This document shows positions 44,346 through 64,000 of a DNA stretch of 64,000 nt, in pieces (positions within the stretch are counted from its first letter, which is position 1; each line of letters starts with the position of its first letter). Both the position numbers and the translations under genes were made by a program. The notes beneath the pieces were generated by a model. It was not told the origin of the DNA. It made no database searches and saw only the letters and a program-made list of their open reading frames with translations. Source of the stretch: Hallella multisaccharivorax DSM 17128 (GTDB taxonomy: Bacteria > Bacteroidota > Bacteroidia > Bacteroidales > Bacteroidaceae); assembly GCF_000218235.1 (NCBI RefSeq), contig NZ_GL945017.1, positions 2,237,607-2,301,606 on the forward strand, written 5' to 3'.

Positions 44346-44359
44346 CTATTCGGGAATAG
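44346..44359. other. Small hairpin, candidate oriT
   Basis: CTATTC-GG-GAATAG is a perfect 6-bp stem, 119 bp before mobC, followed by CAAGTTGTACCCTGCGGG. Relaxase nick sites commonly stand beside such hairpins just upstream of mobC. No nick motif can be assigned. Confidence 0.35.
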
Positions 44360-44477
44360 CAAGTTGTACCCTGCGGGCCCTCTTTCCGGCTGTGACCGAA
44401 AAGAGTTCTCCTTGGGTTCACTTGCCAGCAAAGCTGGGGAAAATTAGCTCGCAACTCGCAATTTAATCACTTGAAAT

Positions 44478-44879: not shown

Positions 44880-46183
44880 TTATCACCATTCTACACAGCA
44901 GTGAAAACTTTCATGCAGTGGACTATAACGAAAAGAAGGTAAGTGAGGGTGCCGCTGAACTGATTGAGGTTAAGAACTTCGATGCGCTTCTTCCACAGGA
45001 TTACAATGTGGCTAATCTCAAGAAGTATCTGATAGAGTATACTGCCCGGAACGAGAACATCGAGAAGGGACAGTTTCATGTCGCCATCAGTTGCAAGGGC
45101 CAGGAATATACTCATGAGCAGCTGCTGGACATCGCTCATCGGTATCTGAAGGAGATGGGCTATGCTGAGGAAGGACAGCCGTTGCTTGTCTATGCCCATC
45201 ATGACACGGACAACAACCACATCCACATCATCACTAGTCGTGTTGCACCTGATGGTCACAAAATCAATCATGATCATGAGAAGCGACATAGTAGGACGAT
45301 TACTGAGCGGATCATGGCGGAGTATACAGGACAGCAACAGAGCCCTGATGTTTCAAGGGTTGTCAATGACGCTCTTGGCTATCGCTACACTTCCAAGTCT
45401 CAGTTCTGTGCCATTCTTGAGAGTCAAGGCTTCGACTGCAAGGATGACGACGACAAGGCCGTCGTCCACGTTTATAGAAACGGTGAAGAATTGGGAACCT
45501 TTCAAGCCCAACTTATCATGCAGCATGCTCTGAAGGATAACCGTCCCGATGACCAGCGACGTCGTCAGTTAAGAGCTATCCTCAGAAAGTATCGTGATCT
45601 GTCAGCCAACAAGGAAGAGCTGGCTACTGCGATGAAGAAGAAGTTCGGCATCAGTCTTGTGTTCTTCGGACAGAAAGACTGCCCATACGGATATGCCATC
45701 GTTGACCATAAAAACAAGACCGTCTTCAAGGGAAATGTGTTCATCAGCATCCGTGAACTGCAGCAGTTCGAGGATGTCGCCACCCGATTTGCCAAGATAG
45801 AGCAGACTATAGATGATATTCTGAAGGACAACCCAACCGCCACAACACGTGATATCAACTGCTTGCTCCATCGCCAGTTCGGTACACGTATCCATCGCGG
45901 CACAGTTTCATGGAATGACGAGACCATTCAGCTAAGCCAGTCTGTTCAAGATCGGCTAAGGCGTAACAATCGTATCGCCATGGGATTGCCGCCGGAGCCT
46001 ATCAGAGTTGTTAACCTTCCCCAAGAGAAACAGGAAACGCCTTCATCCACAAATACTCCTAACAGGGTCGTGGATGCGCAAGGCGGTTCCCGTGATGCTA
46101 ATCATGAATACGAAGTCGGCCATGGTATGAATGTCAACGATATTGACGACGAGCAGAGCCAGAGAGCAAAGTGGAGAAGATGA
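44876..46183 (+). CDS. mobA: MobA relaxase (MOBP-type)
   Basis: A 435-residue relaxase/mobilization nuclease. The three-His motif is YAHHDTDNNHIHIITSRV (about residue 105-122) and the N-terminal segment YTARNENIEKGQFHVAISC includes the strand before the catalytic region. The C-terminal half has no recognised helicase domain, so the element needs a co-resident conjugative machine. It completes the mobC-mobA unit, and lies 26 bp from the ElaA pseudogene on the other strand. Confidence 0.9.
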   Translation: MIITILHSSENFHAVDYNEKKVSEGAAELIEVKNFDALLPQDYNVANLKKYLIEYTARNENIEKGQFHVAISCKGQEYTHEQLLDIAHRYLKEMGYAEEGQPLLVYAHHDTDNNHIHIITSRVAPDGHKINHDHEKRHSRTITERIMAEYTGQQQSPDVSRVVNDALGYRYTSKSQFCAILESQGFDCKDDDDKAVVHVYRNGEELGTFQAQLIMQHALKDNRPDDQRRRQLRAILRKYRDLSANKEELATAMKKKFGISLVFFGQKDCPYGYAIVDHKNKTVFKGNVFISIRELQQFEDVATRFAKIEQTIDDILKDNPTATTRDINCLLHRQFGTRIHRGTVSWNDETIQLSQSVQDRLRRNNRIAMGLPPEPIRVVNLPQEKQETPSSTNTPNRVVDAQGGSRDANHEYEVGHGMNVNDIDDEQSQRAKWRR

Positions 46184-47341: not shown

Positions 47342-48430
47342 TTATATCAGCTCGTCCCAAAAACTCTGTGGGAGGTGGATGTTGTCTACATTGATGGCAT
47401 CACGAAACAATGGGGCGATCTCGTCAGGAGTGAATCCGGCAATACCACAACCGATTGGGGTGACAAGGAAGGTCTGATCGGGATGTTCTTTGGCATAGAC
47501 GAGGAAGTCATCAACGTAGGGCTGGATGGTCTCGGGACCGCCTTGCATCGTTGGGATGGCATAGCTCTGACCTTGTGGTCCTACGCCGACTCCCATCTTG
47601 GCTCCGAAGTAGAGGCGTGCTGTACGGGCAGCTCCACCACCATGCATACCGGCAAGGTTACTGCCAAAGACGAAGATTTCGTTAGGCTGAAGCTGAGAGA
47701 TATAATCGGGAGTGATCCTCTTTGAATAGTCTTTTTCCATATATGTAGATATTTGAGATTCGTAAGACATAGTTTTGCTGACCTCGAAATCGGCCATAGG
47801 TGCCTCAAGACAAGCAGACTCCATCGGTGCTTCGTAATAGCGCTTGAAGTATGGGATGACGACATCGTTCATCATCTTATGGAAACGCTGAGTGACGGCA
47901 GAAGGTGTGAGACCGAGCTGGGTGGCGACTTCCTTTCCCTTGAAGCCATCAATGAGGAGCATCTGAAGGATGATGGAGGACTTGGAGTCGCGCCCATAGA
48001 TGTTATGGCAGATCTCGAAAACGGTCTTGCGGAAGTCCTCGGAGAAGTTGTTGTCGGGAACGTCGAAACGGACATTGTCCTTGCCGATACGTTCCTCGAA
48101 CGACTGCACACGATGTTCCTTGTTATAGGCTTTAAGTCGATCGAGAAGGATGAAGCGGAAGCCGTTGATCATCCAGGTCTTCAGTGACAAGCCCGGCTTA
48201 CGGTCCTCCAACTGCTTGAAGTCGTGCTTGTCGAGTGATATATAATACTCGTGGGCAATGCTATAGAAGTCTAGTCCCTGCTTCCACTGTAAGTCATACT
48301 GCCTATCATAGATGTGATAGGCAATGCGGCAATAGCCGTAAAAATAATCACGGGTTATCTGAGGATCGCGGTCGCGCAATCCTTCGATGATCTCATCATC
48401 AGTCAGTCCTATGATTCGTTTTGTCGTCAT
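47342..48430 (-). CDS. Sigma factor-like N terminus fused to a macro-like domain
   Basis: A 362-residue protein in two parts. Residues 1-200 resemble a sigma-70 family factor: PGLSLKTWMINGFRFILLDR fits region 2 and LLIDGFKGKEVATQLGLTPS with AVTQRFHKMM fits the region 4 HTH. Residues 240-362 contain EIFVFGSNLAGMHGGGAART, GPQGQSYAIPTM and FLVTPIGCGIAGFTPDEIAP, typical of a macro-like fold found in phage and toxin loci (A1S_2505-type). Macro folds bind ADP-ribose or related nucleotides, so the fusion could link a nucleotide signal to transcription. A leftward -7-like CAAATTTA stands at 48439, very near the start. Confidence 0.7.
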   Translation of the reverse strand: MTTKRIIGLTDDEIIEGLRDRDPQITRDYFYGYCRIAYHIYDRQYDLQWKQGLDFYSIAHEYYISLDKHDFKQLEDRKPGLSLKTWMINGFRFILLDRLKAYNKEHRVQSFEERIGKDNVRFDVPDNNFSEDFRKTVFEICHNIYGRDSKSSIILQMLLIDGFKGKEVATQLGLTPSAVTQRFHKMMNDVVIPYFKRYYEAPMESACLEAPMADFEVSKTMSYESQISTYMEKDYSKRITPDYISQLQPNEIFVFGSNLAGMHGGGAARTARLYFGAKMGVGVGPQGQSYAIPTMQGGPETIQPYVDDFLVYAKEHPDQTFLVTPIGCGIAGFTPDEIAPLFRDAINVDNIHLPQSFWDELI

Positions 48431-49487: not shown

Positions 49488-50234
49488 TTATTCCTTAATA
49501 TTCTCAGTCGTTACCTCCAATCCAGTGAGGTACCGCCAGGCATGGAGATACTTATTGAGACGGTGCCAGTCCTTCTCGGTGAGATTGGAAAGACGTGTGA
49601 TATTCATGTTGTCTTCCAAATCATTGATCTTCACCGCATGTCCGAGTTCGTCTTTCGACGCGCGCTCTATGAAGTCAGCGTAGCTTTCGCCAACTTTTCG
49701 GGTCACAGCAATGACTCCGTTGACTATCTCCGCTGAGAACTGATACTCTCTGAGTTTGTCGAAAGTCAACGCTGAATCCTCCACTGTGTCATGGAGTAGA
49801 GCAACCGTCTTAGACTCGATCAGATTGCATTTCATAGACACACGCATTGGATGGAAGATGTAGTCTCTTCCTGCTTTATCTTTCTGCTTAGCATGAAGTG
49901 TGAACATGATGTTGGCCGCGTTGACGTACATGGTATCGTCATTATTACCAAGATCATCAGGCTCATTTACCTCTACATACAGCCAAAGCCCCGTCAGAGC
50001 TTTCAAGACCATACAGGCATCGAAGTCTTCATCGTCAATGTCTGTCTCATCCCCTCTGTTCAGCATTCTTTCACACATGCTGATCTCTCGCTCGATGTTG
50101 GAAACATAATGCTCCAACACATCCGGTATCTCATATCCCTCAGTGCTAAGAATATGATAAGGTTCAAGTTCTGGAGAATTAGCAGAGTAGATCTGATCTT
50201 TCTCATCATAGTCAATAATTATCTTCGCTTTCAT
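49488..50234 (-). CDS. HD-domain hydrolase of the SpoT/Mesh1 type
   Basis: A 248-residue protein. From about residue 110 the HD fold shows HPMRVSMKCN (first His), then ESKTVALLHDTVEDSALTFD (HD and ED pair) and VKINDLEDNMNITRL in place of the canonical KxxDRxxN. This matches (p)ppGpp hydrolases, with a variant last motif, so substrate specificity is open. The N-terminal 55 residues (KIIIDYDEKDQIYSANSPEL) resemble a HicB-like beta module. A hairpin at 50307-50333 separates it from the motor operon. Confidence 0.7.
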   Translation of the reverse strand: MKAKIIIDYDEKDQIYSANSPELEPYHILSTEGYEIPDVLEHYVSNIEREISMCERMLNRGDETDIDDEDFDACMVLKALTGLWLYVEVNEPDDLGNNDDTMYVNAANIMFTLHAKQKDKAGRDYIFHPMRVSMKCNLIESKTVALLHDTVEDSALTFDKLREYQFSAEIVNGVIAVTRKVGESYADFIERASKDELGHAVKINDLEDNMNITRLSNLTEKDWHRLNKYLHAWRYLTGLEVTTENIKE

Positions 50235-50306: not shown

Positions 50307-50333
50307 AGGGCAAGGATGTAGGTTCCTTGCCCT
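50307..50333 (-). terminator. Hairpin at the end of the motor operon
   Basis: A 10-bp perfect stem AGGGCAAGGA / TCCTTGCCCT with a 7-base loop, 12 bp after the DUF6804 stop. The following minus-strand bases are AT-rich without a long T-run. It probably ends the eight-gene transcript. Confidence 0.6.
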
Positions 50334-50345
50334 TAAGTCAACTTA

Positions 50346-50636
50346 TCACTTTTTAAGCCCTTTTACTATGATATAGAATAGCCAAACAGCAATTGCTACG
50401 TCAACCATGTTCCATATTGTCCGCCCCAGCTCAACCTTGAAAAATGGCTGGAATAGTACTGCTAAAACAGCAAACAAAAATCCTTTGCCATCTTGTTTGA
50501 TCTTAAAGTTCTGATATGAAAGATAAGCAAATGCCGCCATTGCTGCGAATCTAACTAGCGCGTAAAATCCGTAAGGCATATCAAACAAGCAGAGGATAAG
50601 CAATATTGCTATAACAAGCTTTATAATTGGGCTCAT
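50346..50636 (-). CDS. DUF6804-like small membrane protein
   Basis: A 96-residue protein with three to four hydrophobic helices (PIIKLVIAILLILCLFDMPY, LVRFAAMAAFAYLSY, GFLFAVLAVLFQPFFKV, IWNMVDVAIAVWLFYIIV). It fits the DUF6804 family, whose function is unknown. It is the last gene of the motor operon, 12 bp behind the MotB/ZorB-like gene. It may be a small membrane partner or an unrelated passenger. Confidence 0.6.
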   Translation of the reverse strand: MSPIIKLVIAILLILCLFDMPYGFYALVRFAAMAAFAYLSYQNFKIKQDGKGFLFAVLAVLFQPFFKVELGRTIWNMVDVAIAVWLFYIIVKGLKK

Positions 50637-50648
50637 GATTCATTATAA

Positions 50649-51479
50649 TTAATGTTTAGAGATCTTGTCAAACTTGGCTTTCGTTACATCGATATTGCCA
50701 ATAATTGGAATTATATTGATAAGGAATCGCTGGTTCCTTTGCTCAACACTCATCCAAGCCTTTAAATCACTCTTGGTTATCTGCTTTTTCTCCTCTCTCG
50801 GATTCTCTGTTATAGGATCTGCGCCACCTTTATAATAATAACGGGGAACACCTCCCTCGCCACTTCCCGCGACAATAATCTCACATTTACTATTAGGATC
50901 ATTCTCACTGGTTGTTTTAAAGAGTCCGCATCCACCCTGAGAGACTGGATCAGTCCAGAATTTCTTTAAGAATGAAGCTCTTAAGAACGACAGCGTCTCA
51001 TTATTCTGCCAATCGTTATCATTAAAAGGAATCTTGGAGGATTGACCTTCTATGATAACTAAGAATTTAATATTTTTACTATCCTTACCTATCTTTTCAA
51101 GATCTTGAATAGTTTTTTGGACCAGTATACCTGCTTGACGAATACTATCACGTTTCTGATCAGCTTTCACAGGATCAGTCAGGTCATACTCCAATTTATT
51201 GGCGATATTATACTGCTTGTCTTGGTACGTAATATTTACCGTCAACGTATGTTTTAAGTACTGAGAATCGTAAGCATAGAACTTACTTTTATCAATAGAG
51301 TCTACTTGCGAATAGACGTCAATGATATCTTCGTATTCGTTTACTAGCATCTGTAGTTGGCCTTCTTTAGTTTTGAAACGACCGTACGTAACAGCAAACA
51401 ATATGAGCGTGATGGCGAACAACGTCGTCATCACGTCCACATAGCTAGGCCAGAAAGAATTATTGAAATCCTTCTTCAT
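50649..51479 (-). CDS. MotB/ZorB-like stator protein
   Basis: A 276-residue inner-membrane protein with a single N-terminal helix (residues 10-30, WPSYVDVMTTLFAITLILFA) carrying Asp15, the position of the ion-binding Asp in MotB, ExbD and ZorB. A short coiled linker leads to an OmpA-like periplasmic domain: FLVIIEGQSSKIPF and ETLSFLRASFLKKFW resemble the peptidoglycan-binding EGHTD...LSxxRA pattern, but with Ser for Thr-Asp. It would anchor the motor to the cell wall. The start overlaps the MotA/ZorA-like gene by 4 bp. Confidence 0.8.
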   Translation of the reverse strand: MKKDFNNSFWPSYVDVMTTLFAITLILFAVTYGRFKTKEGQLQMLVNEYEDIIDVYSQVDSIDKSKFYAYDSQYLKHTLTVNITYQDKQYNIANKLEYDLTDPVKADQKRDSIRQAGILVQKTIQDLEKIGKDSKNIKFLVIIEGQSSKIPFNDNDWQNNETLSFLRASFLKKFWTDPVSQGGCGLFKTTSENDPNSKCEIIVAGSGEGGVPRYYYKGGADPITENPREEKKQITKSDLKAWMSVEQRNQRFLINIIPIIGNIDVTKAKFDKISKH

Positions 51480-53119
51480 TTCTTCTCTTTATCTTTGTTA
51501 CGTCCTCCGAATAAGCCAAACAAGCCACCACGTTCTTCCTCTTCATCTTTCTTCTGGATCACACTTGAATAGGCTGTCTTTATATCAGTTAACAGAGTCT
51601 TTATTTCATTCATACTCTGCTGGAATTTCGTCAAGGAATTCTCTATATTGGAGATTTGCTTGAGTTGATTATCAATATCACTCAATTTCTTCAAATTAGA
51701 AAAGTCCTCGTGAACTTCTGTAACATTGAACTTTTCGTCTAAGGCAGCTTTAAACTCCTCATGCCGCTTCTGGAAGTCTTCCGTGCTATCAGCGATTATC
51801 TTGTTAAAACCAGCAATATGTTCCTTGATAGCTTCCTCATAGTTTTTCGTCATCCCAGTTATTGCAGCAGTCTGATGCTTGTAAAGTTCTTCAAGCTTAC
51901 CATCTGCAAGAAGCATATACCGGTCAGCTATCTTTCCCTTTTTCTTAATGGCACTTATTTGGTCTGAAATGGTATTTATAACATCATTGCCAACCATTTG
52001 TGTCTTTGCGATATCTTCTCCCAGAGCATTTATGCTATTTTCGAATGTTGTTATTCTATCCAGAATGGAATTGACTTTTATAACAAGTTCCTTAGGAATC
52101 TCCAAAGACTCTGCATAGCGGTTCTGCATATTGATTACCTCGTCAGTTGCACGTAGCATCATACGGCGTGCTTGCTCAAATTTATTGAGGGAAGCAGTGA
52201 GCTGAGTGAAATGATCCGTTGCTTCAACAAAGGCCTGGAGACCTTTTGCGATCTGATTACTCTTAATAGTATCGAGCAATTGGGTCTGTAAACGAATATT
52301 CTCGTTGATCTTATCCATATTGTTACCCATAACGGATACAGCACGTGAGACTACATCGACATTCTGTGCAAACTTATCTCCGAATGAACGTGTGCAACTA
52401 TCAAATGTACTTTGGAAGCTTGCAATTACTCGGTTGAAAGACGGCTCAAACTGAGTTACCGTATCATGAAGTTTGTTGAGAGCAGATACCATGCTTACAT
52501 CCAGCGACGGCATAAGCTCCGTCTGGATAAAATCATAGAAATTGTTCTTGTCGATATCAACCTTTCGCTTTACATCACTCGAATAGTAATTGTTACGTGT
52601 GGTCAAGAACAAGCCAATGAAACTTGTTGACATAGAGACAAGCACACCAATGAGCAAGCCCTTGATTGAATCATCATTGACTGAATCAATCCAGACATTA
52701 GCCAGGAATGAAAGGATTCCAAGGAATACTCCACAGAACGTACCCATCAATCCCAAATAGATAGGGAAGGACATACGGGCTGTTGAGTCATCATACAACA
52801 TATCCTCCAATCGTTCTGTCTTATTCTGGATGACAGAGAAGTCTGTTGTTCCTTTCGATTTCTTTACATACTCATTTATCTCGGAAATGAGTTTGCCTAA
52901 ATCGCTCGTAGGCTCAAAATCGCCATCAATCTGAAGGAAGTCTTCACCTTCTAGATTTGATACTCTTTTAACCCGATATCCGTTCTCTCCCTCTTTAAAC
53001 AGATTCTGGAACTTTGCTCTCTTACGTTTTACATCAGCATTGAAATGAAGCTGATAGTAAAAGAAGATAGTGAAAGTAACCGCTGAGATAAGGATTGATA
53101 TAAATATTGATACTGACAT
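51476..53119 (-). CDS. MotA/ZorA-like proton channel with long cytoplasmic tail
   Basis: A 547-residue protein. The first helix (IFISILISAVTFTIFFYY) is followed by a cytoplasmic stretch, then two helices near residues 118-140 (FPIYLGLMGTFCGVFLGILS) and 150-175 (GLLIGVLVSMSTSFIGLFLT). The Gly/Thr-rich GLMGTFCGVFLGI is typical of MotA/TolQ/ExbB channels. Residues 200-530 are almost purely helical coiled coil, like the long intracellular tail of ZorA. A short charged tail with GGLFGLFGG ends it. With the next gene it forms a likely 5:2 ion-driven stator. Confidence 0.82.
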   Translation of the reverse strand: MSVSIFISILISAVTFTIFFYYQLHFNADVKRKRAKFQNLFKEGENGYRVKRVSNLEGEDFLQIDGDFEPTSDLGKLISEINEYVKKSKGTTDFSVIQNKTERLEDMLYDDSTARMSFPIYLGLMGTFCGVFLGILSFLANVWIDSVNDDSIKGLLIGVLVSMSTSFIGLFLTTRNNYYSSDVKRKVDIDKNNFYDFIQTELMPSLDVSMVSALNKLHDTVTQFEPSFNRVIASFQSTFDSCTRSFGDKFAQNVDVVSRAVSVMGNNMDKINENIRLQTQLLDTIKSNQIAKGLQAFVEATDHFTQLTASLNKFEQARRMMLRATDEVINMQNRYAESLEIPKELVIKVNSILDRITTFENSINALGEDIAKTQMVGNDVINTISDQISAIKKKGKIADRYMLLADGKLEELYKHQTAAITGMTKNYEEAIKEHIAGFNKIIADSTEDFQKRHEEFKAALDEKFNVTEVHEDFSNLKKLSDIDNQLKQISNIENSLTKFQQSMNEIKTLLTDIKTAYSSVIQKKDEEEERGGLFGLFGGRNKDKEKK

Positions 53120-53124
53120 TCGTA

Positions 53125-56100
53125 TTATATTTTGGTAAGTTGATATACTTTATCGATGATTGGCAAGAAGAATACCGATCCAAAGTAGATGTCCTCCTTG
53201 GCATACTTCTGCTGCACATCCTTCTTGAAATTGGTATCCAACAGCTCCATGATACTTTCACCGGCCTTTTCTACATATGCCTCAGTATTGGACGTGTTGT
53301 CGAGTATACGATCATGCTTCATCAGTGAAAGTATATTCTTATAAATACCTATCATATCCTCATACCTGTTCTTCAAAACAGATTTTATAGAAGGATAGTC
53401 AGCAACAATGTCCCCAACATCTTTGTATTGCTTATCGCCATTGCCTTGATAAATACACTCAGGTACGGACGGTTCATCTTCAGTACGATAGAGGCCGCCA
53501 TAGCAAGTACTTTCCTTGCGCTCCTCTGGCATCTTAAGATGCACATCAGTTGCCTCACCATAGACCTTGGTAAACACAAGATCGATGAACTTCTTCAATA
53601 CAGCATCCTTATTACTGATGAAGTTGTCAATATAGCGGCTGCCGTTACCACTGAAGACAACAGTACGGGGGCACTTAAGCCCTTTATCCTTGTATATACT
53701 AGCCATGTAATATAGAATAGCAGTCAAGTGGAATATGAACACAGGCTTGAAAGCTGAGCTAATCTCTCGGATAATACCACAATCATTGGCATTGTCTAAC
53801 CAGAAATTAATGATATCTCGCGTTGTGGCATCCTTGTCACTTTCCATACCGTCATTGATCTCCTGCAGTTTCGGAGTATCAAAGTGTATCGTGCTAATGA
53901 ATTTCTGATAAATACCATTCTCACGAAGATTGGTAAATTCAGCAGTACCATTGTCCCACAGCACATCACAGCCAAAATGAACAGAATTGGCCATCTTAGG
54001 CTGGTTATCTTCAAAATAGACAAAATCGGTAGAACCACCGCCAATATCAATGACAGTGACAGCCTCTGAGTTGGGGATGATGTTCATCTTCTTGAAGTAA
54101 TAGTAGGGTGCCTCTGACTCTGTAATACACTGTACTTTGTCACGGTCTATATCGAGAATCTGTTTGGTTTCAGATTCCCAAACAGTCTCATACGTGTCTT
54201 TTATGTTACCGGTGAACGACAGAGGTCTGAACCAGACGATCTCAGTACAATCGAGGTCACCATTGTGCTGGAGTACATCAGACTTTATCATCAACAGCAA
54301 TTCACGAACAAACACCCTAAGGCGATTCTCGTCATCCTCCCATTTAATATCGGTGAGGATTTCCTGTTTGACAGTTTCCAATTCCTTCTCATAGAAGAAG
54401 GCAATATTATGATTGTTGAACAGGGAAGCACGGTTAGTATCACCCTTCACATGGCACAATGCCGTACGAATAGGAAACTTGTACTTCTTCTGATCGATGA
54501 TAGATGGTGCGAATTCAGTAATAAAAGCCTTTTTGCCACCCTCAAATATTGCATCCTCTATTCGATTGGCTAGTGATAACTGGGGATTATCACTATACGA
54601 ATGAAGATAACTAACCATAGGCTCTTGCAGGTTAAACAACTCCGGAAGATTATTTTGCCCTACCTGGCAACGTGCAATGAAGGTATTTGAGGTACCTAAG
54701 TCAATAGCATACTTGAACGCCTGTTTTGACGGACGACTGTGTCTCCATTTAGGGAAGACGAGACCGTGGTGTTCAAGAATCTCTACATCAATAGCTTCAA
54801 AGGAAGTATTGTACACCTCGTAGAACTTCGACTCATATTCCACATATTGTCTTTCCTGCGAGTTATTGATACGGGTACGCACAACAGGTTGACGAACACC
54901 ATATTCATATTTGGTATCCGCATCCTCCTCATTAATACGATTAACCTTCCCATCGGCTTTATGATAGAAAGACAACTTGGCTTTGTCAATATATAGCTGG
55001 GGTGCCTCCTCATCTTTGTCCGTTATGGCGAGCAGAATCTTGAAATAATTATTCTCGTTGCTCTCATTTGATAGGATATTAGGGAATAGACCCAGGTCAA
55101 AGTTCTGTTTTGCTTTGCCCAAATCGACTATACGACCATACTTGTCACTGATAGGATCCGATTCATATTCTTTCATATATTCCTTACCGTTATAATTTAA
55201 GGTTACTACAACGTTATCACCATCCTTGATGTGGCATTTACAATCTGGAACCCCATCAAAGTAGTTCATAATCTCCGGTCGGAAAGGCATCAGAAAATCA
55301 TAGGTACGATTCGGATCTGCTTTGATATTGGGGAACAATACCACATCCTTGTCGGACAAACGATAAGGGACTTTGATGATATCCTTTGTAAAGAAAGAAT
55401 TGATATCAACTGCTTTATCAAACCCAATCTGAATCCCGTTTATGACAATTTCGTCATTTACATCGGACATCACTGGTTCTACATCAATATGCCGACCACT
55501 CTTGATATCAGGGTCATCTTTGAATAGCTTTATGTATTCTTGAATCTCCTTGAATCGACTATCAACATTGGATCCTCCGAATAAATTATTGTACACATAA
55601 TTCTTGAAATCCTCATCACGCTTTTCAAACAAGCATATTGAACGGAAATATTCACGACCAGACTTACTGCTTATGTGTAATTTCTGATATTGTTCACCCT
55701 CAAATTCAATGTGAGACACACCTTTCTCCTTAATAGAATTAGCGTCCATATCTGGGGGAGTGACAAAAAGTGTCATTGGTGAACTGCAAGCCAACAGGTA
55801 TTCTTTGCCGTCTTCATTATATACGACAAAATACAACTTATCCTCTTTAAGGTCACTATTGAAATAGGTATTGAGAGAGTTATAAAGGGTAGGTACCTTA
55901 TTTTTAAGGTCTTTCATACTCTCTTCTCGATCCCATTCCTTAATGCTGATGGATTCAGTTGCAGACCAGCTATTCTTATGGAACTTAGAGTTGAACAACA
56001 ATTCTATAACATCCAGGCAATTGGACACAATCATCTGATAGGCGTATCCAGCCTCATTGCGTGGATTCCTTTTTTCTTCTGCTACACGACGAAAGGCTTC

Positions 56101-56274
56101 CTTTGTCACATAGAAACGAGCAAATGGGGTAGGCAGTGAATTGAGCGCGCCGGCGTTATCGGTTTTCATCTCTACCACCTTACTCAAACTCTCCGAAGAG
56201 ATGCCTGTATTCTCTGCAATCCATTCGGTGCCCGTAGTTCCGCGGTCTATAATATTTAAATCTATCTTCGCCAT
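53125..56274 (-). CDS. Actin/Hsp70-fold ATPase, SrfB-like
   Basis: A 1049-residue protein. The ASKHA ATPase lies in the C-terminal half: phosphate 1 KYAIDLGTSNTFIARC (about residue 525), phosphate 2 TVIDIGGGSTDFVYFEDN (about 745) and the adenosine motif RTVVFSGNGSRYIDNF (about 875). The 500-residue N-terminal region is acidic and has no motif I recognise. Overall plan resembles the large SrfB-type proteins annotated as virulence factors in other bacteria. It stands 5 bp from the ZorA-like gene and 2 bp from the tubulin-like gene. A role as an ATP-driven or filament-forming component is inferred. Confidence 0.8.
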   Translation of the reverse strand: MAKIDLNIIDRGTTGTEWIAENTGISSESLSKVVEMKTDNAGALNSLPTPFARFYVTKEAFRRVAEEKRNPRNEAGYAYQMIVSNCLDVIELLFNSKFHKNSWSATESISIKEWDREESMKDLKNKVPTLYNSLNTYFNSDLKEDKLYFVVYNEDGKEYLLACSSPMTLFVTPPDMDANSIKEKGVSHIEFEGEQYQKLHISSKSGREYFRSICLFEKRDEDFKNYVYNNLFGGSNVDSRFKEIQEYIKLFKDDPDIKSGRHIDVEPVMSDVNDEIVINGIQIGFDKAVDINSFFTKDIIKVPYRLSDKDVVLFPNIKADPNRTYDFLMPFRPEIMNYFDGVPDCKCHIKDGDNVVVTLNYNGKEYMKEYESDPISDKYGRIVDLGKAKQNFDLGLFPNILSNESNENNYFKILLAITDKDEEAPQLYIDKAKLSFYHKADGKVNRINEEDADTKYEYGVRQPVVRTRINNSQERQYVEYESKFYEVYNTSFEAIDVEILEHHGLVFPKWRHSRPSKQAFKYAIDLGTSNTFIARCQVGQNNLPELFNLQEPMVSYLHSYSDNPQLSLANRIEDAIFEGGKKAFITEFAPSIIDQKKYKFPIRTALCHVKGDTNRASLFNNHNIAFFYEKELETVKQEILTDIKWEDDENRLRVFVRELLLMIKSDVLQHNGDLDCTEIVWFRPLSFTGNIKDTYETVWESETKQILDIDRDKVQCITESEAPYYYFKKMNIIPNSEAVTVIDIGGGSTDFVYFEDNQPKMANSVHFGCDVLWDNGTAEFTNLRENGIYQKFISTIHFDTPKLQEINDGMESDKDATTRDIINFWLDNANDCGIIREISSAFKPVFIFHLTAILYYMASIYKDKGLKCPRTVVFSGNGSRYIDNFISNKDAVLKKFIDLVFTKVYGEATDVHLKMPEERKESTCYGGLYRTEDEPSVPECIYQGNGDKQYKDVGDIVADYPSIKSVLKNRYEDMIGIYKNILSLMKHDRILDNTSNTEAYVEKAGESIMELLDTNFKKDVQQKYAKEDIYFGSVFFLPIIDKVYQLTKI

Positions 56275-56276
56275 AG

Positions 56277-57674
56277 TTATTTCAAGATCTTATTTGTATA
56301 GTGATTGATTGCCTGGTAGGCAAAATCAAGAAAGTATCTGAACTTATTGCTGTGATGATCCTCTTTGTCCTTGTTGCTGGCCATAATCATCTGGAGCAGA
56401 TAGTACGAATCATCAGCACCACCAAGCGTCATTCCCTTTACAAAGCCCGATAGATTCTTTGCATCGGTAGTCAGTGGAGCAAACGCACGTTTATTGGTGG
56501 CAAGTTCATCGTACCATTGAGTATAGACTCTCATGAAGTCTTCCAAGGAAGTGAATGCCACATCATTGTAGAAGTTGGAATTGAATCCTCTCTCCTGAGA
56601 TAGTGGAAAATACTTCTCTGTCTTCAGTACCGTTGCTAATTTAATAAGCAGGTTGAAATCCGCTACCGCCTTTACCAAGCCATTATATCCTTTACCAAGC
56701 GAGTCCTTATCAAGAGAATCGGAATTGTCCTCAATTGCACGGCTCAGATATTGCGTCTGTTCGGGTTTCTCACGGGTGAGGAAGTCGAACAAGGATGTTG
56801 CAGCTACGAGCTCTATAAAGTTAGCCGTGTCCTTTTGCTCTGCCTCATTGTTCTCATATACCTGTCGGAGTTGTGTCTCACCTACATAATAGATGTAGTC
56901 TGCTTCCGGTTTCCCTGAATCATAATAGGATAAAGCAGCTTTTGCTTTCGTATAGAAATTTGCAGAGTCAATATCACTATGTGAAGTTTCAGGGTCCTTA
57001 AGCCCATAATATGGCAAAACGAGTACCGAACCCATGATTGAGTTTTTGACAGTGGGTGCATTTGATGACTCTCTGACTTTTTTCTCTATCAAAGGGAGAC
57101 CAGAAGCGCCTGTTCCTCCAAATATTGAACTAATGATGAACACGCGATCCTCCTTGTCACAATGGCGCTTAAAAGAATCAAACCATGCTGAACTTTCAAT
57201 AATGTCGCCAAGAACTACGGTGCCAACATTCGGATTACCCTTGAAACCCACCAATAGCTTGTTGCGCTTATTCTTTGTAGAGAAAAGAGTATCTACAAGA
57301 TAATTATTCAAATCGTTGTTGGCCAAGTTATTTAAGCCAAGCCACGATTCAAAAGACTTATCGACACCTATATTCTCATTGACGTCATTTGTGTTATCGT
57401 CAAGAGCACCAAGCCAAGAAAGATTTGAAGAGAAGAAGCCATTAAGAGGATTCAAAGTCTCTTTTCCATCATTAATGGTACGATGATAGATATCTGTATA
57501 TCTGTCGACAAGAGACTGGAGATTCTTCTTCTCATCCAGATCTTGGTGTGGATCCACAAGAATAGGTATGACGGTATAGCCATTGGTATCCATTCCGCTA
57601 GCCATAAGCATGATGATACTTTTCATCACGCGGAGTCCGGTACCGCCGATACAAAAAATAAATACTTTCTTCAT
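56277..57674 (-). CDS. Tubulin/FtsZ-like GTPase
   Basis: A 465-residue protein with tubulin-superfamily marks. The N-terminal strand and loop KVFIFCIGGTGLRVMKS fit the G1 region, VIPILVDPHQDL the next strand, and FIISSIFGGTGASGLPLIEK (about residue 185-200) is the GGGTGSG tubulin signature with one change. GTP binding and possibly filament formation are expected. The C-terminal 200 residues are helical. In the operon it is directly followed (2 bp) by the actin-fold gene. Confidence 0.78.
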   Translation of the reverse strand: MKKVFIFCIGGTGLRVMKSIIMLMASGMDTNGYTVIPILVDPHQDLDEKKNLQSLVDRYTDIYHRTINDGKETLNPLNGFFSSNLSWLGALDDNTNDVNENIGVDKSFESWLGLNNLANNDLNNYLVDTLFSTKNKRNKLLVGFKGNPNVGTVVLGDIIESSAWFDSFKRHCDKEDRVFIISSIFGGTGASGLPLIEKKVRESSNAPTVKNSIMGSVLVLPYYGLKDPETSHSDIDSANFYTKAKAALSYYDSGKPEADYIYYVGETQLRQVYENNEAEQKDTANFIELVAATSLFDFLTREKPEQTQYLSRAIEDNSDSLDKDSLGKGYNGLVKAVADFNLLIKLATVLKTEKYFPLSQERGFNSNFYNDVAFTSLEDFMRVYTQWYDELATNKRAFAPLTTDAKNLSGFVKGMTLGGADDSYYLLQMIMASNKDKEDHHSNKFRYFLDFAYQAINHYTNKILK

Positions 57675-57677
57675 GAC

Positions 57678-58121
57678 TTATAACTTTAATAGCCGATAGG
57701 CATTTGTTGGTAAATAAGAACAATAAATGATCGATGTAATTATATAGATAATCACGGCATAAAGCGTATTAGCCAACGATAGCTTGATCTCAATAGACCA
57801 TGCTCCATCAAGCTTTGGCGCTTGTATTAAATATGCAGCACCAAGAGTAAAAACGAATGTAGATACAGCACAAATGCCAAGGAATATACACCAATGTGTG
57901 GGCCGATAATGCCTACCTGGCATATTATTATAAGGACCATAATAAAACCATGCCCAGGCGATTCCTAGAGCCAAAAATAAGCCTACGAAAGCAATCGCAT
58001 TGTTTTCTAAGCCATTCCAGAAGGCTTGCGCCTGCTCATATTGCTCGTCCTGATTCTGAAATGAATTCAGAAATGCAGCTTTGGATCCTGTTGCCCAAGT
58101 GTAAAGGTTAAACAGACTCAT
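57678..58121 (-). CDS. Small three-helix membrane protein
   Basis: A 147-residue inner-membrane protein. Hydrophobic segments: NAIAFVGLFLALGIAWAWFYY, WCIFLGICAVSTFVFTLGAA and LANTLYAVIIYIITSIIYC. The loop after the first helix has PGRHYRPTHW. No family recognised. It lies 3 bp before the tubulin-like gene and 5 bp after the vWA-like gene, so it is certainly part of the operon; a membrane platform for the cytoskeletal proteins is one possibility. Confidence 0.7.
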   Translation of the reverse strand: MSLFNLYTWATGSKAAFLNSFQNQDEQYEQAQAFWNGLENNAIAFVGLFLALGIAWAWFYYGPYNNMPGRHYRPTHWCIFLGICAVSTFVFTLGAAYLIQAPKLDGAWSIEIKLSLANTLYAVIIYIITSIIYCSYLPTNAYRLLKL

Positions 58122-58126
58122 ATTAT

Positions 58127-59374
58127 TTATAAATTATTTTTTGTAATTAATATATAGTTGGATTGAGGTTGCTTGTTCACAATTCCACCCTGTTGGATAC
58201 CGATGATGAAGTTCTCCAAGGAGTATGACTTCGTAACATCATTTTCATCCTTAGCGCCTAGGAATTGTCCAATATACGTGGCATCTGTTCCATCAGGAAT
58301 TCTCAGATTCCATTGAAGGACATCCATATCGCTGGGCATATTACTTACCGACAATTTTATCGTTGCAACGGCAGAGCGCTTGAGTTTCTGGTTGACATAA
58401 TTGTCAGTTTTAATTTCGATATCACTGACTTTTACCTTAGAACCATAAGTGGATTTGACCGTGAAAGACTTCTGAATCACATCTTTTTCAGCCATGATCC
58501 ATCTGAAAGCTTCCAGATGTAACTTCAGTGAAATGGTACATGCACCTAAAGATTCATCATAGCTATAAAAAGTCGGTTGCTGCTCATATTGTACGGCATT
58601 ACGAGGTATACCAAACGTATAAGGGACAGTTGCATATTTATAGCCGAAATCCATGTTATCTATGAATGTTTTATGACTATCAAGCATCGAGGATATACCA
58701 TTCCTAATATAGGAAACCTTGTTTTGATCCCCAATAACAAGATAGTAATAAGGGGAGCGCTTGGTCACGATGTTGCCCATTTTGTCAACGTAACTAGAGA
58801 TAGCACTAATCAGTGAGAAAGATTTACCTGAAGAGCCAGCTATCCGGGCCACATCAGATCCATACTGTGTAAGCAACACTTCTGGAGCAGCAGCACCAAC
58901 AGGACTGTACTTCATGTCAGAAATAAGAACTGCTACCTCTCCCTTTTTTAACTGGCTGACAATTGTCGAAAGCATAATAGGAATTTGAGTAGATGCGTTG
59001 GACTGCAAAGCACCTACATTCATAGCATTCTGGAAGTTGGCCAAGTTCATCTTACCAGCAACACCTCCATCATTAGTCATTATATTGATATCCTTTGTTG
59101 ATCTGGAGTAATAACTCATGATCTCGTAGACATCACGTTTGAAATCTGTAGGCTGACCATTTCTAAAGAATCCGTTCATACTGCCGGAAGATTCGACGTA
59201 AAATCTTACAATAGCATCACTATCAACCTTAGCAAACTGAGGTTGACTAACAAGACTGCCGTCCTTAGTAAAATGAGGATCTCCCATTGTGTTAAGGTCA
59301 GATCCACCGAGAAGAGCCTTAAAGACTAACAGCAGCACTACTACGATGAGAATTATAGGAATCGCTTTCTTCAT
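58127..59374 (-). CDS. Membrane-anchored vWA-like protein
   Basis: A 415-residue protein with an N-terminal anchor helix (AIPIILIVVVLLLVFKALLG), so most of it is periplasmic. Residues 55-75 read IVRFYVESSGSMNGFF, a MIDAS-like ESSGS where the first Asp of DxSxS is Glu. EVAVLISDMKYSP near 145 matches the strand bearing the third MIDAS Asp. The rest has a beta-rich C-terminal domain. It may sense or bind a ligand in the periplasm and signal through the membrane to the cytoplasmic NTPases. Tight spacing (4-5 bp) on both sides. Confidence 0.7.
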   Translation of the reverse strand: MKKAIPIILIVVVLLLVFKALLGGSDLNTMGDPHFTKDGSLVSQPQFAKVDSDAIVRFYVESSGSMNGFFRNGQPTDFKRDVYEIMSYYSRSTKDINIMTNDGGVAGKMNLANFQNAMNVGALQSNASTQIPIMLSTIVSQLKKGEVAVLISDMKYSPVGAAAPEVLLTQYGSDVARIAGSSGKSFSLISAISSYVDKMGNIVTKRSPYYYLVIGDQNKVSYIRNGISSMLDSHKTFIDNMDFGYKYATVPYTFGIPRNAVQYEQQPTFYSYDESLGACTISLKLHLEAFRWIMAEKDVIQKSFTVKSTYGSKVKVSDIEIKTDNYVNQKLKRSAVATIKLSVSNMPSDMDVLQWNLRIPDGTDATYIGQFLGAKDENDVTKSYSLENFIIGIQQGGIVNKQPQSNYILITKNNL

Positions 59375-59378
59375 TGTT

Positions 59379-61928
59379 CTACCATATTTTATAATTTTTT
59401 TTTGTATTCTTTATTATTATGTTGGTATACAACATTTTATCTTTTATCTGTCGGAGAAGTACATTGACATTAAAGCCATTTCCTGGAATTATTTCACAAG
59501 CAATCAGACTTGCCAAGTTGTATTTGGCTTCATCGTTGTTTGCTTTCTCGAAACACTCTTTTGCCATGTATGGGTTTTTGCCAAATCCTTTTAAGCCAAG
59601 AGCCAAACAAATTCCTCGCTCGTTAAGAGCATCCTTAGTTTCTGATGTAGAAATCCATTCTTTTGAGTTGTCCACATAATAGGCTTTCTCCACTCCATTT
59701 ACCCACATATCCTTAATCCTATGTCGGATGGCAAGATAGTACATAGTACCTTGATAGTCAAAGGGCTTATAATCAACCTTTGAGCAGTATGTGTAGAGCA
59801 GTTCGTCTATCTTTGTGAACGAGGTAGTCTGAGGTGGTGTATCCGGCAAACTATAATTCCAGAACCAGCATTGCCTATCGGAATCATCGATTGAGGGAGG
59901 AACCTTTTGAAAAGCATTCCATTTAATTTGAACTGAATCGAAGTCAGCAGAATTAAAGAGGTTGTCTCTGTTCTCCAAAAACTGTACGTTGACATATCCT
60001 TCCATGGTTTCTATACGTGTATCCCTCATATTGCCGGATTCGACAATAATGCTAACCCCATCATTTTTAGGATCTATTACAATCCATGGATAGTCGGTAG
60101 GTAATCCAAGAAACGTAAGAACTTCATTTAGAAATTTATCAAAGTTCGAAGCAAGAGAGAATGGATTATCTTTTAAAGATGTTATTTCATTAACAATCTC
60201 CTGAGACAGCCCATTGAAGCATATTGCCCTAAACTTAGATTTACCACCAAGTTCGATAGCAAGAAAATTATTCTCATCCCAATATAATGAATCGACGCCA
60301 TCAGACTTCATTATATCGGACTCCGAAAACTCATTATCATCCTCGTCGTCCATTGGGAACTTTCGCAAAATTCGCTTCACGCCCATACCAAGAGCAAGAT
60401 AATATGAGACATATGAAGAGATATCGTCAGATGCTACAGATAGTTCCATCTGCTTAATTTCATTCTCTGCGTTTACGACATATTCTTTATTTTTAAGATC
60501 CTTAGCTTTATGTTGAACAGACCACAAAGATACTCCACTAGGCAATTGCTCGACGATATCATTGTATCTGAGAAGCCGTTGACGACGAGCCTTCTCAGTA
60601 CGAATATGTTCAGCAACCTCTTCTTCTGTCAGTTCTCTAACCATTGAGAGATAGCATACCACTGGCATAGACTCACCGTAGAGATCCATGACATCTTGGC
60701 TATTTTCTATAACTTGTTTCTCATCAGAAATCAAATCTAACAAGAAGATAAACTTATATTCACCTTTATCTTTTGTAAGTACACTCCCTAAATTCTTAAT
60801 ATCACAATAATCAAGATCTTCAAAGATAGACCCCAAGTTGTCATAGAGGGAGTCAACAATCTGAGAGTTCCACCCTAAGAAATTATCATTAACCTTAACC
60901 AAAAGAGTCTTATTCCCTTTTGTTATCGACTTTATGAATTTCTTAACAGCTTCAATATCTTTATCATTATAATGGGCTGAACCAAATGATAAGGACTTTA
61001 CCCAATTGTAAATTTCAACATCTGCCTTACTCTGATCTTCTGTCGCTTCATCACTGTATTCTTTAATAGCAATCTGATCTATATGGACAATATCGCCAAA
61101 TGAATGGCTGTCTTTGTCCACGCCTTGGATTTGAATATCTCTAATTATTGAGTGCCATGTTTTGTATTGGGTAGACACAATAGCGTCTGTTTCATGACAA
61201 AAAGAGTTCTGGGTGTCCTTCCAGTCCATATAGGAAAGATACCTTTGATTAGCTGCAATATACTCCTTGAGCTTATCTTCTGAAGCAAGAATTTGATCTT
61301 TTGTCTTCAAGGCAGGATTAGCATCCAGAAAAGCCTTTAGATATTTCTTGTACCTCTTACAAAATTGTTGATATATCCCCTCTTTCTTTTTCTCAGCTAT
61401 TATGGTATTAACCGTATTTTGAGTTACGGTCTCTATTGATTCATATGGCAACAAGAAGATGGGGTTGATCTTTGAACGATTTCTGAAGTATCGTTGTGGA
61501 ACGACGTTCTTCCCCTTTACAAAATCCTCAAACAATGAATGGTCAGCCTTATCAAAGTTTTCAAGTGTCATGAGAATATTATTCCATTTCTCTGCACGCT
61601 GATCACTTACCTTACTATAAATTCTAGCCCAGGCATTCAAGCTATCATTGATCATGTCCTCGCTAAATGGTTTCTTGGAAATGTTCTGATAGTAATAGGC
61701 CTGGAAAAATAAGGGATAATTGTTATATAGGACAATAGGTCTAAGCTTTCTTTCCTCTTTGGCTTTCTCTTTTTTCTTATTAGAAACTACTGCGACGACG
61801 ATTAAGGCCACAACGATAACAGCCAAGGTTGACATAACCTCAGGGAAAGTCGTGAATAACCAACCTAGTATCACAATCAATACCAAGGCTCCACAACCTA
61901 GAGAACTACTATCACCACTGCTTGCCAT
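59379..61928 (-). CDS. Two-helix membrane protein with large cytoplasmic part
   Basis: An 849-residue protein, first in the operon. Two helices lie at residues 10-55 (CGALVLIVILGWLFTTFPEV and LAVIVVALIVVAVVS), then a basic stretch KKKEKAKEERKLR, so the remaining 790 residues are cytoplasmic. The middle is helical and acidic, and the C-terminal 70 residues hold a Sel1/TPR-like piece (ALGLKGFGKNPYMAKECFEK then AKYNLASLI). No enzyme motif recognised. It could be the membrane scaffold that joins the motor with the other subunits. Promoter at 62174-62204. Confidence 0.68.
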   Translation of the reverse strand: MASSGDSSSLGCGALVLIVILGWLFTTFPEVMSTLAVIVVALIVVAVVSNKKKEKAKEERKLRPIVLYNNYPLFFQAYYYQNISKKPFSEDMINDSLNAWARIYSKVSDQRAEKWNNILMTLENFDKADHSLFEDFVKGKNVVPQRYFRNRSKINPIFLLPYESIETVTQNTVNTIIAEKKKEGIYQQFCKRYKKYLKAFLDANPALKTKDQILASEDKLKEYIAANQRYLSYMDWKDTQNSFCHETDAIVSTQYKTWHSIIRDIQIQGVDKDSHSFGDIVHIDQIAIKEYSDEATEDQSKADVEIYNWVKSLSFGSAHYNDKDIEAVKKFIKSITKGNKTLLVKVNDNFLGWNSQIVDSLYDNLGSIFEDLDYCDIKNLGSVLTKDKGEYKFIFLLDLISDEKQVIENSQDVMDLYGESMPVVCYLSMVRELTEEEVAEHIRTEKARRQRLLRYNDIVEQLPSGVSLWSVQHKAKDLKNKEYVVNAENEIKQMELSVASDDISSYVSYYLALGMGVKRILRKFPMDDEDDNEFSESDIMKSDGVDSLYWDENNFLAIELGGKSKFRAICFNGLSQEIVNEITSLKDNPFSLASNFDKFLNEVLTFLGLPTDYPWIVIDPKNDGVSIIVESGNMRDTRIETMEGYVNVQFLENRDNLFNSADFDSVQIKWNAFQKVPPSIDDSDRQCWFWNYSLPDTPPQTTSFTKIDELLYTYCSKVDYKPFDYQGTMYYLAIRHRIKDMWVNGVEKAYYVDNSKEWISTSETKDALNERGICLALGLKGFGKNPYMAKECFEKANNDEAKYNLASLIACEIIPGNGFNVNVLLRQIKDKMLYTNIIIKNTKKNYKIW

Positions 61929-62173: not shown

Positions 62174-62204
62174 CAAAATTATAAATTTTTCTTTACCTGA
62201 CAAA
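62174..62204 (-). promoter_or_regulatory. Promoter of the motor/actin/tubulin operon
   Basis: On the minus strand TTTG (62204-62201), 19 bp, TAATTTTG (62181-62174): a full consensus match. The transcript would begin near 62167, leaving a 5' leader of about 240 bases before the first ATG at 61928. That leader (61929-62170) holds no gene I can support. Confidence 0.72.
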
Positions 62205-62570: not shown

Positions 62571-63476
62571 TCAATTGCTCCATTCTCCTAAATTTGAGGT
62601 TCTCTCAACCTTGCTCTCTATTTTGTCATTAAGCGTACTGAAGAAATCCATTCCTGCAACCTTCTCTACTTCATCCACAGACATTACATAGGTTGACATA
62701 TTTCCACTACAAGCTTTGTTAGGATAGATAAATCCCAATGCTTGGGGATTATTACCAAGGCGAAGTATGACTTTGAAGAAAGCATCAGGAACAAGTATGT
62801 TGTCTTCACCTATAGTTCTATGATGACCAGAAGTAAAGATTGGCCCACACACGATATAAATACAATCATAGGTTCTTGCCCAATCTCTACACGCATCTTC
62901 CAAATCTTTCCAGTCACCTTCATTAAGATCTCCATATTGAGGACAGATGTTAGTCATTAAATGACATTCATCCATAGCACGATCACTCCACTTATTATCA
63001 GCAGCTGGGCACATGTGTCCTCGTTGCATATCATAAGGACTACCTTTATAATCTTGATAATATGCACGCGGATATGGTACCTCCATATCTTCATGAAATT
63101 TATAGCCACTACGGTTATACGGACCCTCCGTATGTTGGGCTATAAGTTTCCATGCCACCCAATTAGGACACCGTGTGTCTTTATTGTAGGAAACTGTATA
63201 AGAATATCTTTTTAAAATCTGACTTTGAAATCTCTTTGTGAAGACAGGAATCTCTATGCTTGCATTAGAAGTTGAGTCAGAAGTTTTTGAATCAGTATCA
63301 GCTAAACGGGTTGTCGGTGCTTTATCCTTAATAGGTGACTTTTCAATGGAGATTCCAGAGGAAGAGGTCTCCGGAATCGGCTCAGGTTCATCTGTCGTAA
63401 TTCTCTTAATTGCGAAGAGTAACACAAAGAAGAGTATAACAAAGAATAAGGCCGACTTCAAATTTTTCTTATCCAT
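62571..63476 (-). CDS. Membrane-anchored NUC1-type DNA/RNA non-specific endonuclease
   Basis: A 301-residue protein. The N terminus has one helix (ALFFVILFFVLLFAIKRI) and then a Ser/Thr/Pro-rich spacer, placing the catalytic domain in the periplasm. The beta-beta-alpha-metal nuclease domain shows YDMQRGHMCPAADNKWS, the DRGHxxPA motif with Gln for Asp, followed by MDECHLMTNICPQYGDLNEG with the metal-binding Asn. Members degrade DNA and RNA. It is on the same strand as the motor operon and about 640 bp upstream; whether it is an effector of that system is inference. Confidence 0.85.
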   Translation of the reverse strand: MDKKNLKSALFFVILFFVLLFAIKRITTDEPEPIPETSSSGISIEKSPIKDKAPTTRLADTDSKTSDSTSNASIEIPVFTKRFQSQILKRYSYTVSYNKDTRCPNWVAWKLIAQHTEGPYNRSGYKFHEDMEVPYPRAYYQDYKGSPYDMQRGHMCPAADNKWSDRAMDECHLMTNICPQYGDLNEGDWKDLEDACRDWARTYDCIYIVCGPIFTSGHHRTIGEDNILVPDAFFKVILRLGNNPQALGFIYPNKACSGNMSTYVMSVDEVEKVAGMDFFSTLNDKIESKVERTSNLGEWSN

Positions 63477-63519: not shown

Positions 63520-64000
63520 TTATCCGAAGATCGTTGCAACTCTGTACATGAAGAAAGGAAGGTCTTGTACACCTCTGACTTGTGCTCTGAAGCCCTTCGT
63601 CTTTGAGTTGAGGGACTCTGCAGAAGCATTGGTCGATCTGTTGTTAAAGTAGTTAAGAACTTCCTCCTCTCTGTACTTGATAGCATCCCTGGCTACTTTG
63701 ATCTCACGCAGGTTGGAGTTAGCTACACGCTGATACCACTCATGCAGTTTCACTCTTGCAGTCTCCTTGTTAAGGCTCTTATCTCTGAAGATAGCTCTAA
63801 GACTGCACACATGTCCGTATGCTTCCTTTATCTTCGGATGCATGTCGAACAGCAGGTTGGCTCTTTCCCTTTGCTTCTCGCCCCATTTGTCACCGCTTTG
63901 CGTAAGTAGGTACCGGCTCCTCGTAAGCAGTTCTACATGAGTATCACCGTTGGACAGTTCTTCGGGCTTGAACCGCTGATTAAGTCGCATCGGCTTACGG
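63520..64000 (-). CDS. Transposase of ISL3/ISAon1 type, cut by the window edge
   Basis: The C-terminal 156 or more residues of a DDE transposase. The visible part has MRLNQRFKPEEL, EKQRERANLLFDMHP and, near the end, STNASAESLNSKTKGFRAQV, the Glu-containing helix with K(T/I)K typical of ISL3-like enzymes. The frame runs off the right edge (the codons before the Met at 63990 are open), so the start is outside. It ends 44 bp from the nuclease start and may mark the island border or a later insertion. Confidence 0.8.
   Translation of the reverse strand, partial: RKPMRLNQRFKPEELSNGDTHVELLTRSRYLLTQSGDKWGEKQRERANLLFDMHPKIKEAYGHVCSLRAIFRDKSLNKETARVKLHEWYQRVANSNLREIKVARDAIKYREEEVLNYFNNRSTNASAESLNSKTKGFRAQVRGVQDLPFFMYRVATIFG

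Follow-up and report, generated by a model that had tools for sequence, protein, structure and literature searches.

The 64,000-nucleotide stretch of Hallella multisaccharivorax DSM 17128 analysed here (the window; contig NZ_GL945017.1, positions 2,237,607 to 2,301,606) carries, at window positions 50346-61928, eight leftward genes which combine a Zorya-like ion motor with both an actin-type and a tubulin-type nucleoside triphosphatase (NTPase). At the level of sequence, the parts, their co-conservation and the presence of exported-type nucleases beside the motor are established. The core of vWA-like, transmembrane (TM), tubulin-type and actin-type genes is primary and the motor is a recurrent module. 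A defence role is plausible. Our preferred reading, tentative and judged to fall a little short of an even chance, is that the operon encodes an envelope-anchored anti-phage machine, one that would detect a damaged envelope or entering DNA and respond by deploying an exported nuclease.

The operon and its proteins

All eight genes, g1 to g8, lie on the minus strand. They are tightly packed, just as the preliminary description stated, with spacings of 2-12 bp or a 4-bp overlap. Their G+C content is 0.37-0.41 and that of the first 12 kb of the window is ~0.48-0.51. The ZorB/MotB-like subunit g2 (50649..51479) has a TM helix with an ion-binding-type aspartate, Asp-15, and an OmpA-like domain of the peptidoglycan-binding type with an S164/R167 motif, as read from its sequence; Asp-15, Ser-164 and Arg-167 are invariant in 31/31 aligned members of the family. 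g2 matches the PADLOC ZorB model (E-value 9.7e-8). The g2 profile matches type I ZorB 8VVN (1.1e-13) in an alignment spanning both the Asp and the LSxxRA motif; type II ZorB (8VVI_A, 0.0054) is ranked behind MotB chains. The ZorA/MotA-like subunit g3 (51476..53119) has 547 residues and the long C-terminal coiled-coil tail expected of a ZorA-type protein. Its whole chain matches type II ZorA (8VVI_F) with an E-value of 5.9e-7, the pore stretch alone with 2.7e-4, and the ZorA of 8QYK is matched at 0.0011; the nearest solved relatives of the pore stretch are the Zorya ZorA chains. The preliminary description had found ZorC, ZorD and ZorE to be absent, and their models are indeed unmatched by the eight operon proteins of the window at E-values up to 1. 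It had also named, as an outcome that would undo its proposal, membership of the motor in a known Tol/Exb or gliding system. No such model reached its cut-off among the eight proteins, and the first match of g2 is the type I Zorya ZorB.

The tubulin/FtsZ-fold protein g5 (56277..57674) has both the tubulin GTPase fold and the GGTG nucleotide loop, in the form FGGTGASG. Tubulin_2 (PF13809), which we take to be the nearest Pfam model for the FtsZl1 family, is matched by 12 of 21 g5 relatives (best E-value 3.1e-9) and weakly by g5 itself (0.044). A long coiled coil is absent from the 465-residue predicted model of g5. In g4 (53125..56274) an actin/Hsp70-superfamily domain follows ~520 residues of unknown fold. 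The phosphate-1, phosphate-2 and adenosine motifs are all present and place the domain in this superfamily; Asp-525, Gly-527, Thr-528, Asn-530, Asp-743, Gly-745 to Gly-747, Asp-750 and Gly-876 are invariant in 21/21 aligned sequences. g4 matches MreB (9.2e-5), and in Pfam it matches Ppx-GppA and, weakly, FtsA only, with no HSP70 match. The preliminary description had put forward the SrfB profile as a check on this gene; the model is unmatched by g4 at E-values up to 1 and an SrfB identity was dropped.

The vWA-like protein g7 (58127..59374) has an N-terminal anchor, ExSGS in place of the DxSxS motif and a C-terminal Ig-like sandwich. A Foldseek search with its model gave mainly antibody and sandwich matches, vWA domains being seen on a second look. 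g7 is predicted to be extracytoplasmic, and a lipobox-like sequence occurs in 50 of 90 g7 relatives. The membrane protein g6 (57678..58121) has 147 residues, and the last gene, g1 (50346..50636), encodes a small DUF6804 protein (PF20619, E-value 1.7e-29). The first gene, g8 (59379..61928, 849 residues), encodes a hydrophobic N-terminal stretch in which two TM helices were read by eye. No family lies above cut-off in profile scans of g8, and no match was found in 91 related loci at E-values up to 10. A broad g8 family was also considered and dropped, the search having given four proteins with g8 itself included; g8 is clade-specific and without a recognised fold.

Conservation of the core, the motor and the nucleases

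Related loci were collected via the tubulin gene, whose presence is therefore a matter of selection; at least 552 stretches encode a relative. The 97 loci comprise 80 from named genomes, 11 stretches from relatives, five IMG/VR contigs and the window, and partner genes were called in them by iterated profiles. The actin-type gene is present in all 97, the vWA-like gene in 91, the TM gene corresponding to g6 in 90, ZorA in 63 and ZorB in 60. A further gene between actin and ZorA (cluster c0), mostly encoding a hydrophobic N-terminal stretch, is found in 59/97. A single gene order is observed in the loci listed, vWA, TM, tubulin, actin, (c0), ZorA, ZorB, with extra open reading frames (ORFs) sometimes interposed. 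Median gaps between neighbouring core or motor genes are 5-17.5 bp, and the spacing lies between -60 and 150 bp in 81/90, 84/90, 80/95 and 48/60 neighbouring pairs. Five alignments were made, each including the window: A1 drew on 9 of the 120 proteins listed together with 11 loci, A2 on 30 of 88 matches, A3 on 22 of 63, A4 on 30 of 58 and A5 on 20 of 94.

Because the 97 loci had been chosen by tubulin, a second sample independent of it, 392 Bacteroidota genomes, was searched. Tubulin was found below 1e-60 in 11 genomes, actin below 1e-80 in nine and the ZorB family below 1e-30 in six. All nine strong actin matches lie within 400 bp of tubulin, and all six strong ZorB-family matches are on the tubulin strand within ~9 kb. 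The next matches to the ZorB profile are at 1.2e-9 or weaker, except for a second piece of the match in genome G366. The claim that motor, actin-type and tubulin-type genes are co-conserved thus holds in this sample also, and the converse, that the cytoskeletal genes are not conserved together with the motor pair, was tested across the loci and not observed.

The motor itself is not constant. It is present in 63 of 83 decidable loci, and the other 20 keep the tubulin and actin genes without it. At least nine gains or losses are required on a quick tubulin tree with long branches flagged. Taken together, these two observations indicate that the motor has repeatedly joined, or been lost from, the core. 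The earlier proposal is upheld as to co-conservation and not as to its wording, since a motor acting on cytoskeletal NTPases describes one form of a cytoskeletal core. We note that one copy, L042, on a contig labelled Lachnospiraceae, nests inside the Bacteroidota clade and is probably misbinned.

The first reading overlooked that exported-type nuclease and protease genes accompany the motor. Nucleases were counted in 71 of the 97 loci: L108 and L109 were excluded for their distance, and 24 others showed less than 1.5 kb of downstream sequence. Near-identical loci such as L105/L106 were counted separately. A nuclease gene is found downstream in 25/47 motor-bearing loci vs 0/24 motor-less loci (Fisher p 2.4e-6). 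Three unrelated nuclease folds occupy the slot downstream of the motor, with Endonuclease_NS in 20 of the 47 motor-bearing loci, thermonuclease in four and a DNase I type in one; the base rate is 45 Endonuclease_NS genes in 40 genomes. A hydrophobic N-terminal stretch is seen in each of the 21 Endonuclease_NS proteins, the best 15-residue mean being 1.87-3.81 in what is a crude test. A trypsin-like protease is encoded in ten of the 47 loci and an aspartyl protease in three, and protease and nuclease share a locus in 10/97, the nuclease of L061 lying on the opposite strand. DUF6804 is found downstream of the motor in 10/47 motor-bearing vs 0/24 motor-less loci. Families were named by Pfam or, for thermonuclease and DNase I, by PDB matches. 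Labels were checked directly for two Endonuclease_NS members and for one member each of the thermonuclease, DNase I type, trypsin, aspartyl protease and DUF4357 groups; the remaining accessory members were labelled by cluster-built profiles.

In the window, an Endonuclease_NS (NucA-type) gene encoding 301 residues (62571..63476, minus strand; PF01223, E-value 6.4e-53) sits 642 bp upstream of g8. The protein has a hydrophobic N-terminus and the motifs QRGHMCPAAD (RGH) and N[MI]CPQ (NICPQ). It is one of two Endonuclease_NS genes in the host genome and its transcript is probably separate from that of the operon. We also observed a protein with three DUF4357 stretches (L025:13287-14681 and relatives) after ZorB in 11/47 motor-bearing loci; the window is without it.

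Mechanism, known systems and alternatives

MotAB/ZorAB/TolQR-type motors are known from flagella, from import and from one defence system, which they drive. Our proposal for the operon runs as follows. Anchored to the peptidoglycan through its OmpA-like domain, the ZorB-like subunit would sense a disturbance of the wall, and ion flow would then turn a ZorA-like pentamer, as proposed for Zorya. The long ZorA-like tail would reach an assembly of actin-type and tubulin-type NTPases that g6 and g8 would anchor to the membrane; this assembly may act as an NTP-gated switch setting a threshold. The signal would return across the membrane and reach the vWA-like protein. The incoming DNA would then be cut outside the inner membrane by a nuclease, of the Endonuclease_NS type in the window and of the thermonuclease or DNase I type in other loci; in some lineages a co-encoded protease may unlock the nuclease. 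We infer the order of events, the direction of signalling, every functional step and the anti-phage role itself. In its strongest form the proposal describes a new class of immune machine, where a peptidoglycan-tethered rotary ion motor drives an actin/tubulin NTPase switch and triggers an interchangeable exported nuclease, so that phage DNA is destroyed in the periplasm before it reaches the cytoplasm; this form we regard as doubtful. A motor coupled to both great cytoskeletal NTPase superfamilies would offer a direct way to ask how ion-driven rotation is read out in the cell, a standing question for Zorya. Should the exported nuclease prove to be the effector, the cut would fall in the periplasm, a stage earlier than in most known nuclease-based immunity. 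The operon, at ~12 kb, is testable in laboratory Bacteroides.

The system partly coincides with Zorya and with the FtsZl1/vWA neighbourhoods and belongs fully to neither. In the model put forward for Zorya, ZorB senses a disturbed peptidoglycan layer, the motor turns and the ZorA tail brings in a nuclease (PMC11890865). The operon shares with Zorya I and II the ZorA-like pore subunit with its long coiled-coil tail, the ZorB-like TM aspartate with an OmpA-like domain and a nuclease gene nearby. It differs in having no ZorC, ZorD or ZorE match and in adding actin-type, tubulin-type, vWA-like and TM genes; moreover, the nuclease is of another fold and has an export-type N-terminus. FtsZl1 proteins, encoded with vWA, GTPase and OmpA-family genes, have been predicted to remodel membranes (Makarova and Koonin 2010, PMC2875224, in the sections available). 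The resemblance to the operon, where the corresponding gene is vWA-like, lies in a divergent tubulin-superfamily gene beside a vWA gene, with an OmpA-family gene in several genomes, and a Bacteroides caccae sequence is included in the alignment shown there (PMC2875224). In the same sections, the FtsZl1 set has P-loop GTPases and kinases, and most of its FtsZ-like proteins carry a long coiled coil; no actin-fold partner, MotA/ZorA partner or exported nuclease is mentioned. Diverged P-loop GTPases are frequent FtsZl1 members; no P-loop GTPase family is matched by the eight proteins at E-values up to 1, and the TRAFAC GTPase core of the systems discussed next is not found in them either.

The GTPase-centred conflict systems of Kaur et al. 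(2020, PMC7159879, as far as the text was accessible) resemble the operon in joining tubulin to vWA genes (a vWA-like gene here), have HSP70 in other neighbourhoods and are proposed to be NTP-dependent. They differ in being built on a TRAFAC GTPase, with tubulin and HSP70 themes that are described as non-overlapping and mostly found in Firmicutes and Actinobacteria. MotA, ExbB and TolQ are absent from the text of that paper, where Zor occurs solely as an author's name. Its NucA-trypsin 'System 3' resembles our loci in pairing Endonuclease_NS with a trypsin-like protease as the proposed core of a conflict system; it is mostly alphaproteobacterial, and motor, actin and tubulin go unmentioned in the accessible text (PMC7159879). 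The TMH-vWA force transducers have a membrane-anchored extracytoplasmic vWA protein encoded with a TolQ-family motor, which the predicted placing of the vWA-like g7 resembles, and differ in that the part of the paper at hand mentions no actin or tubulin gene (PMC12204202). A MotA/ZorA partner joined to actin-fold and tubulin-fold proteins appears in none of the available portions of PMC2875224, PMC7159879, PMC12204202, PMC12505986 (stator) and PMC11890865. Likewise no title or abstract describing the combination of motor, actin and tubulin was found in a literature search whose coverage took in few subscription papers.

Several observations weigh against the anti-phage reading. The PADLOC ZorA model is unmatched by g3. 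Two of the 11 tubulin genomes (G243 and G366) have no strong actin match, the candidates there being scored in part; the G366 locus (contig 38, 42249-45063) looks decayed, as its tubulin and ZorB-like genes contain in-frame stops. Export of the nucleases is predicted from hydropathy alone, and the window nuclease gene sits outside the tight operon. Proteases are found in 13/47 loci with the motor vs 3/24 without, which is not significant (p 0.23). Nuclease and protease are both missing downstream in 17 of the 47 motor-bearing loci, including six of Hymenobacteraceae and the window, where the nuclease is upstream. When independent branches are compared, six motor/no-motor pairs remain and the sign test falls short of significance (median p 0.25), with no pair reversed. 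The motor-less genome G008 does encode an Endonuclease_NS protein, ~14 kb further downstream within a run of genes on one strand. This ~20-kb run (L020/L118, contig 28, ~47-67 kb) leads from vWA-like to tubulin, actin, trypsin-like protease and Endonuclease_NS genes without a recognised ZorA or ZorB and is possibly a larger version of the system.

The genomic surroundings are also divided. In flank scans, which covered ORFs of at least 250 residues, the flanks of 17 loci of the window's clade matched 80 PADLOC families at E-values up to 1e-20 (66 ORFs), among them type II restriction, AbiEii, AriA/AriB and candidate systems. This tally is per family, with 25 of the 80 inspected and some generic (a GlgB-type model, a DUF1848-bearing one), and it is not a count of defence ORFs. 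The flanks of 18 Hymenobacter-type and Spirosomataceae loci (81 ORFs) have no PADLOC match at the same threshold, and many neighbours are retained around these copies; some Bacteroidales copies adjoin metabolic genes. The defence setting is therefore real for the window and is not general. The island setting put forward in the preliminary description accordingly holds for the window copy, which defence genes flank, and not for the Hymenobacter-type and Spirosomataceae copies.

The alternative that survives best is a membrane- or envelope-remodelling or secretion machine with no defence role, in which the NTPases would polymerise at the inner membrane and the motor would pass force to the wall or to the vWA-like protein. 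We consider it unlikely, though a serious contender. It draws on the remodelling predicted for FtsZl1 neighbourhoods with vWA and OmpA-family genes (PMC2875224) and on the proposal that vWA proteins coupled to TolQ-type motors are force transducers (PMC12204202), each in the part of the source available. It is also consistent with the flanking clusters common to most of 12 Hymenobacter loci, one Solirubrum locus and the Fibrella group, which are without PADLOC match and fit a resident function. Set against such a function are the patchy presence (13/392 genomes), the recurrent change of the motor module (at least nine times on the quick tree), a slot that holds three nuclease folds and the defence-island setting of the window copy. 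In an abortive-infection form, which we regard as improbable, a triggered effector would damage the host's own envelope or DNA and not the incoming phage genome. Infected cells carrying Zorya I or II are impaired and suffer damage to their own DNA (PMC11890865), and the motor is accompanied here by proteases and DUF6804 proteins; exported nucleases, however, would miss the chromosome as long as the inner membrane stayed intact.

DNA entry in some competent bacteria makes use of NucA-type nucleases, and exported-type nuclease and protease genes do adjoin an energised envelope motor in these loci. A DNA-scavenging or uptake machine could thus be envisaged, in which the motor and NTPases would carry inward what the exported nuclease and protease make of outside DNA and protein. 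It seems quite improbable, given the defence genes around the window copy and the lack of competence or pilus families among the matches of the scanned operon and accessory proteins, a genome-wide search not having been made. Chance adjacency of unrelated genes is refuted by the presence of actin with tubulin in 97/97 selected loci and by the phylum sample (9/9 for actin, 6/6 for ZorB).

Expression signals, genomic setting and spread

A perfect match to the Bacteroidota-type promoter, TTTG-N19-TAATTTTG (62174..62204, minus strand), lies ~250 bp before g8, in agreement with the promoter described earlier. The consensus has eight matches in the window vs 0.74 expected, about tenfold over shuffles, in support of the sequence coming from a member of the Bacteroidota. 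A sigma-70-type promoter scan of the window gave a number of sites at chance level. After g1, a terminator-like hairpin with a T-run (50307..50333, minus strand) has 10 pairs, six of them G-C; 11 such sites are found in the region vs 8.0 expected. Just past this hairpin, a 248-residue protein (49488-50234, minus strand) contains a RelA/SpoT HD-like stretch at residues 111-179 (TIGR00691, E-value 2.3e-9, far below the cut-off).

The island in the window has ISL3 transposase genes at 24511-25716 and 63520-63990. One side of the operon carries AbiEii, a TmtA-like 2327-residue protein with a helicase, a SoFic-like Fic protein, a Toprim protein and a relaxase; on the other are a GajB-like helicase, a WYL protein, a weak AbiH match and an HNH gene. 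The Toprim/AAA protein and the MobA/VirD2-type relaxase (40699-46183, plus strand) point to an integrated mobilisable element as the carrier of the island. 

Presence of the family is patchy, with 13/392 genomes including that of the window. A member is found in 10/59 relatives besides the window's own genome, those of the same genus having 32-37% identity. Relatives of 60-64% identity occur in records named Prevotella, Bacteroides and other Bacteroidia, one of 63% being in Phocaeicola vulgatus. This pattern suggests horizontal transfer. A phage origin was considered and dropped, there being no tblastn match in 50,697 phage records, as was a plasmid origin, for which six distant matches only were found. 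Among the five loci on IMG/VR contigs, L105 and L106 are of the motor form; their few scanned ORFs comprise a helicase, DUF1848 and Sel1 repeats, with no structural phage gene.

A 362-residue ORF at 47342-48430 (minus strand) has no Pfam match at E-values up to 1e-4, and its N-terminus resembles a sigma-type helix-turn-helix protein. To the right of the window, two ORFs ~15 kb apart (L119:1238-1654 and L119:16115-17683) share their first 100 residues, TPR-like by eye, and form a partial duplication bracketing the helicase and WYL genes.

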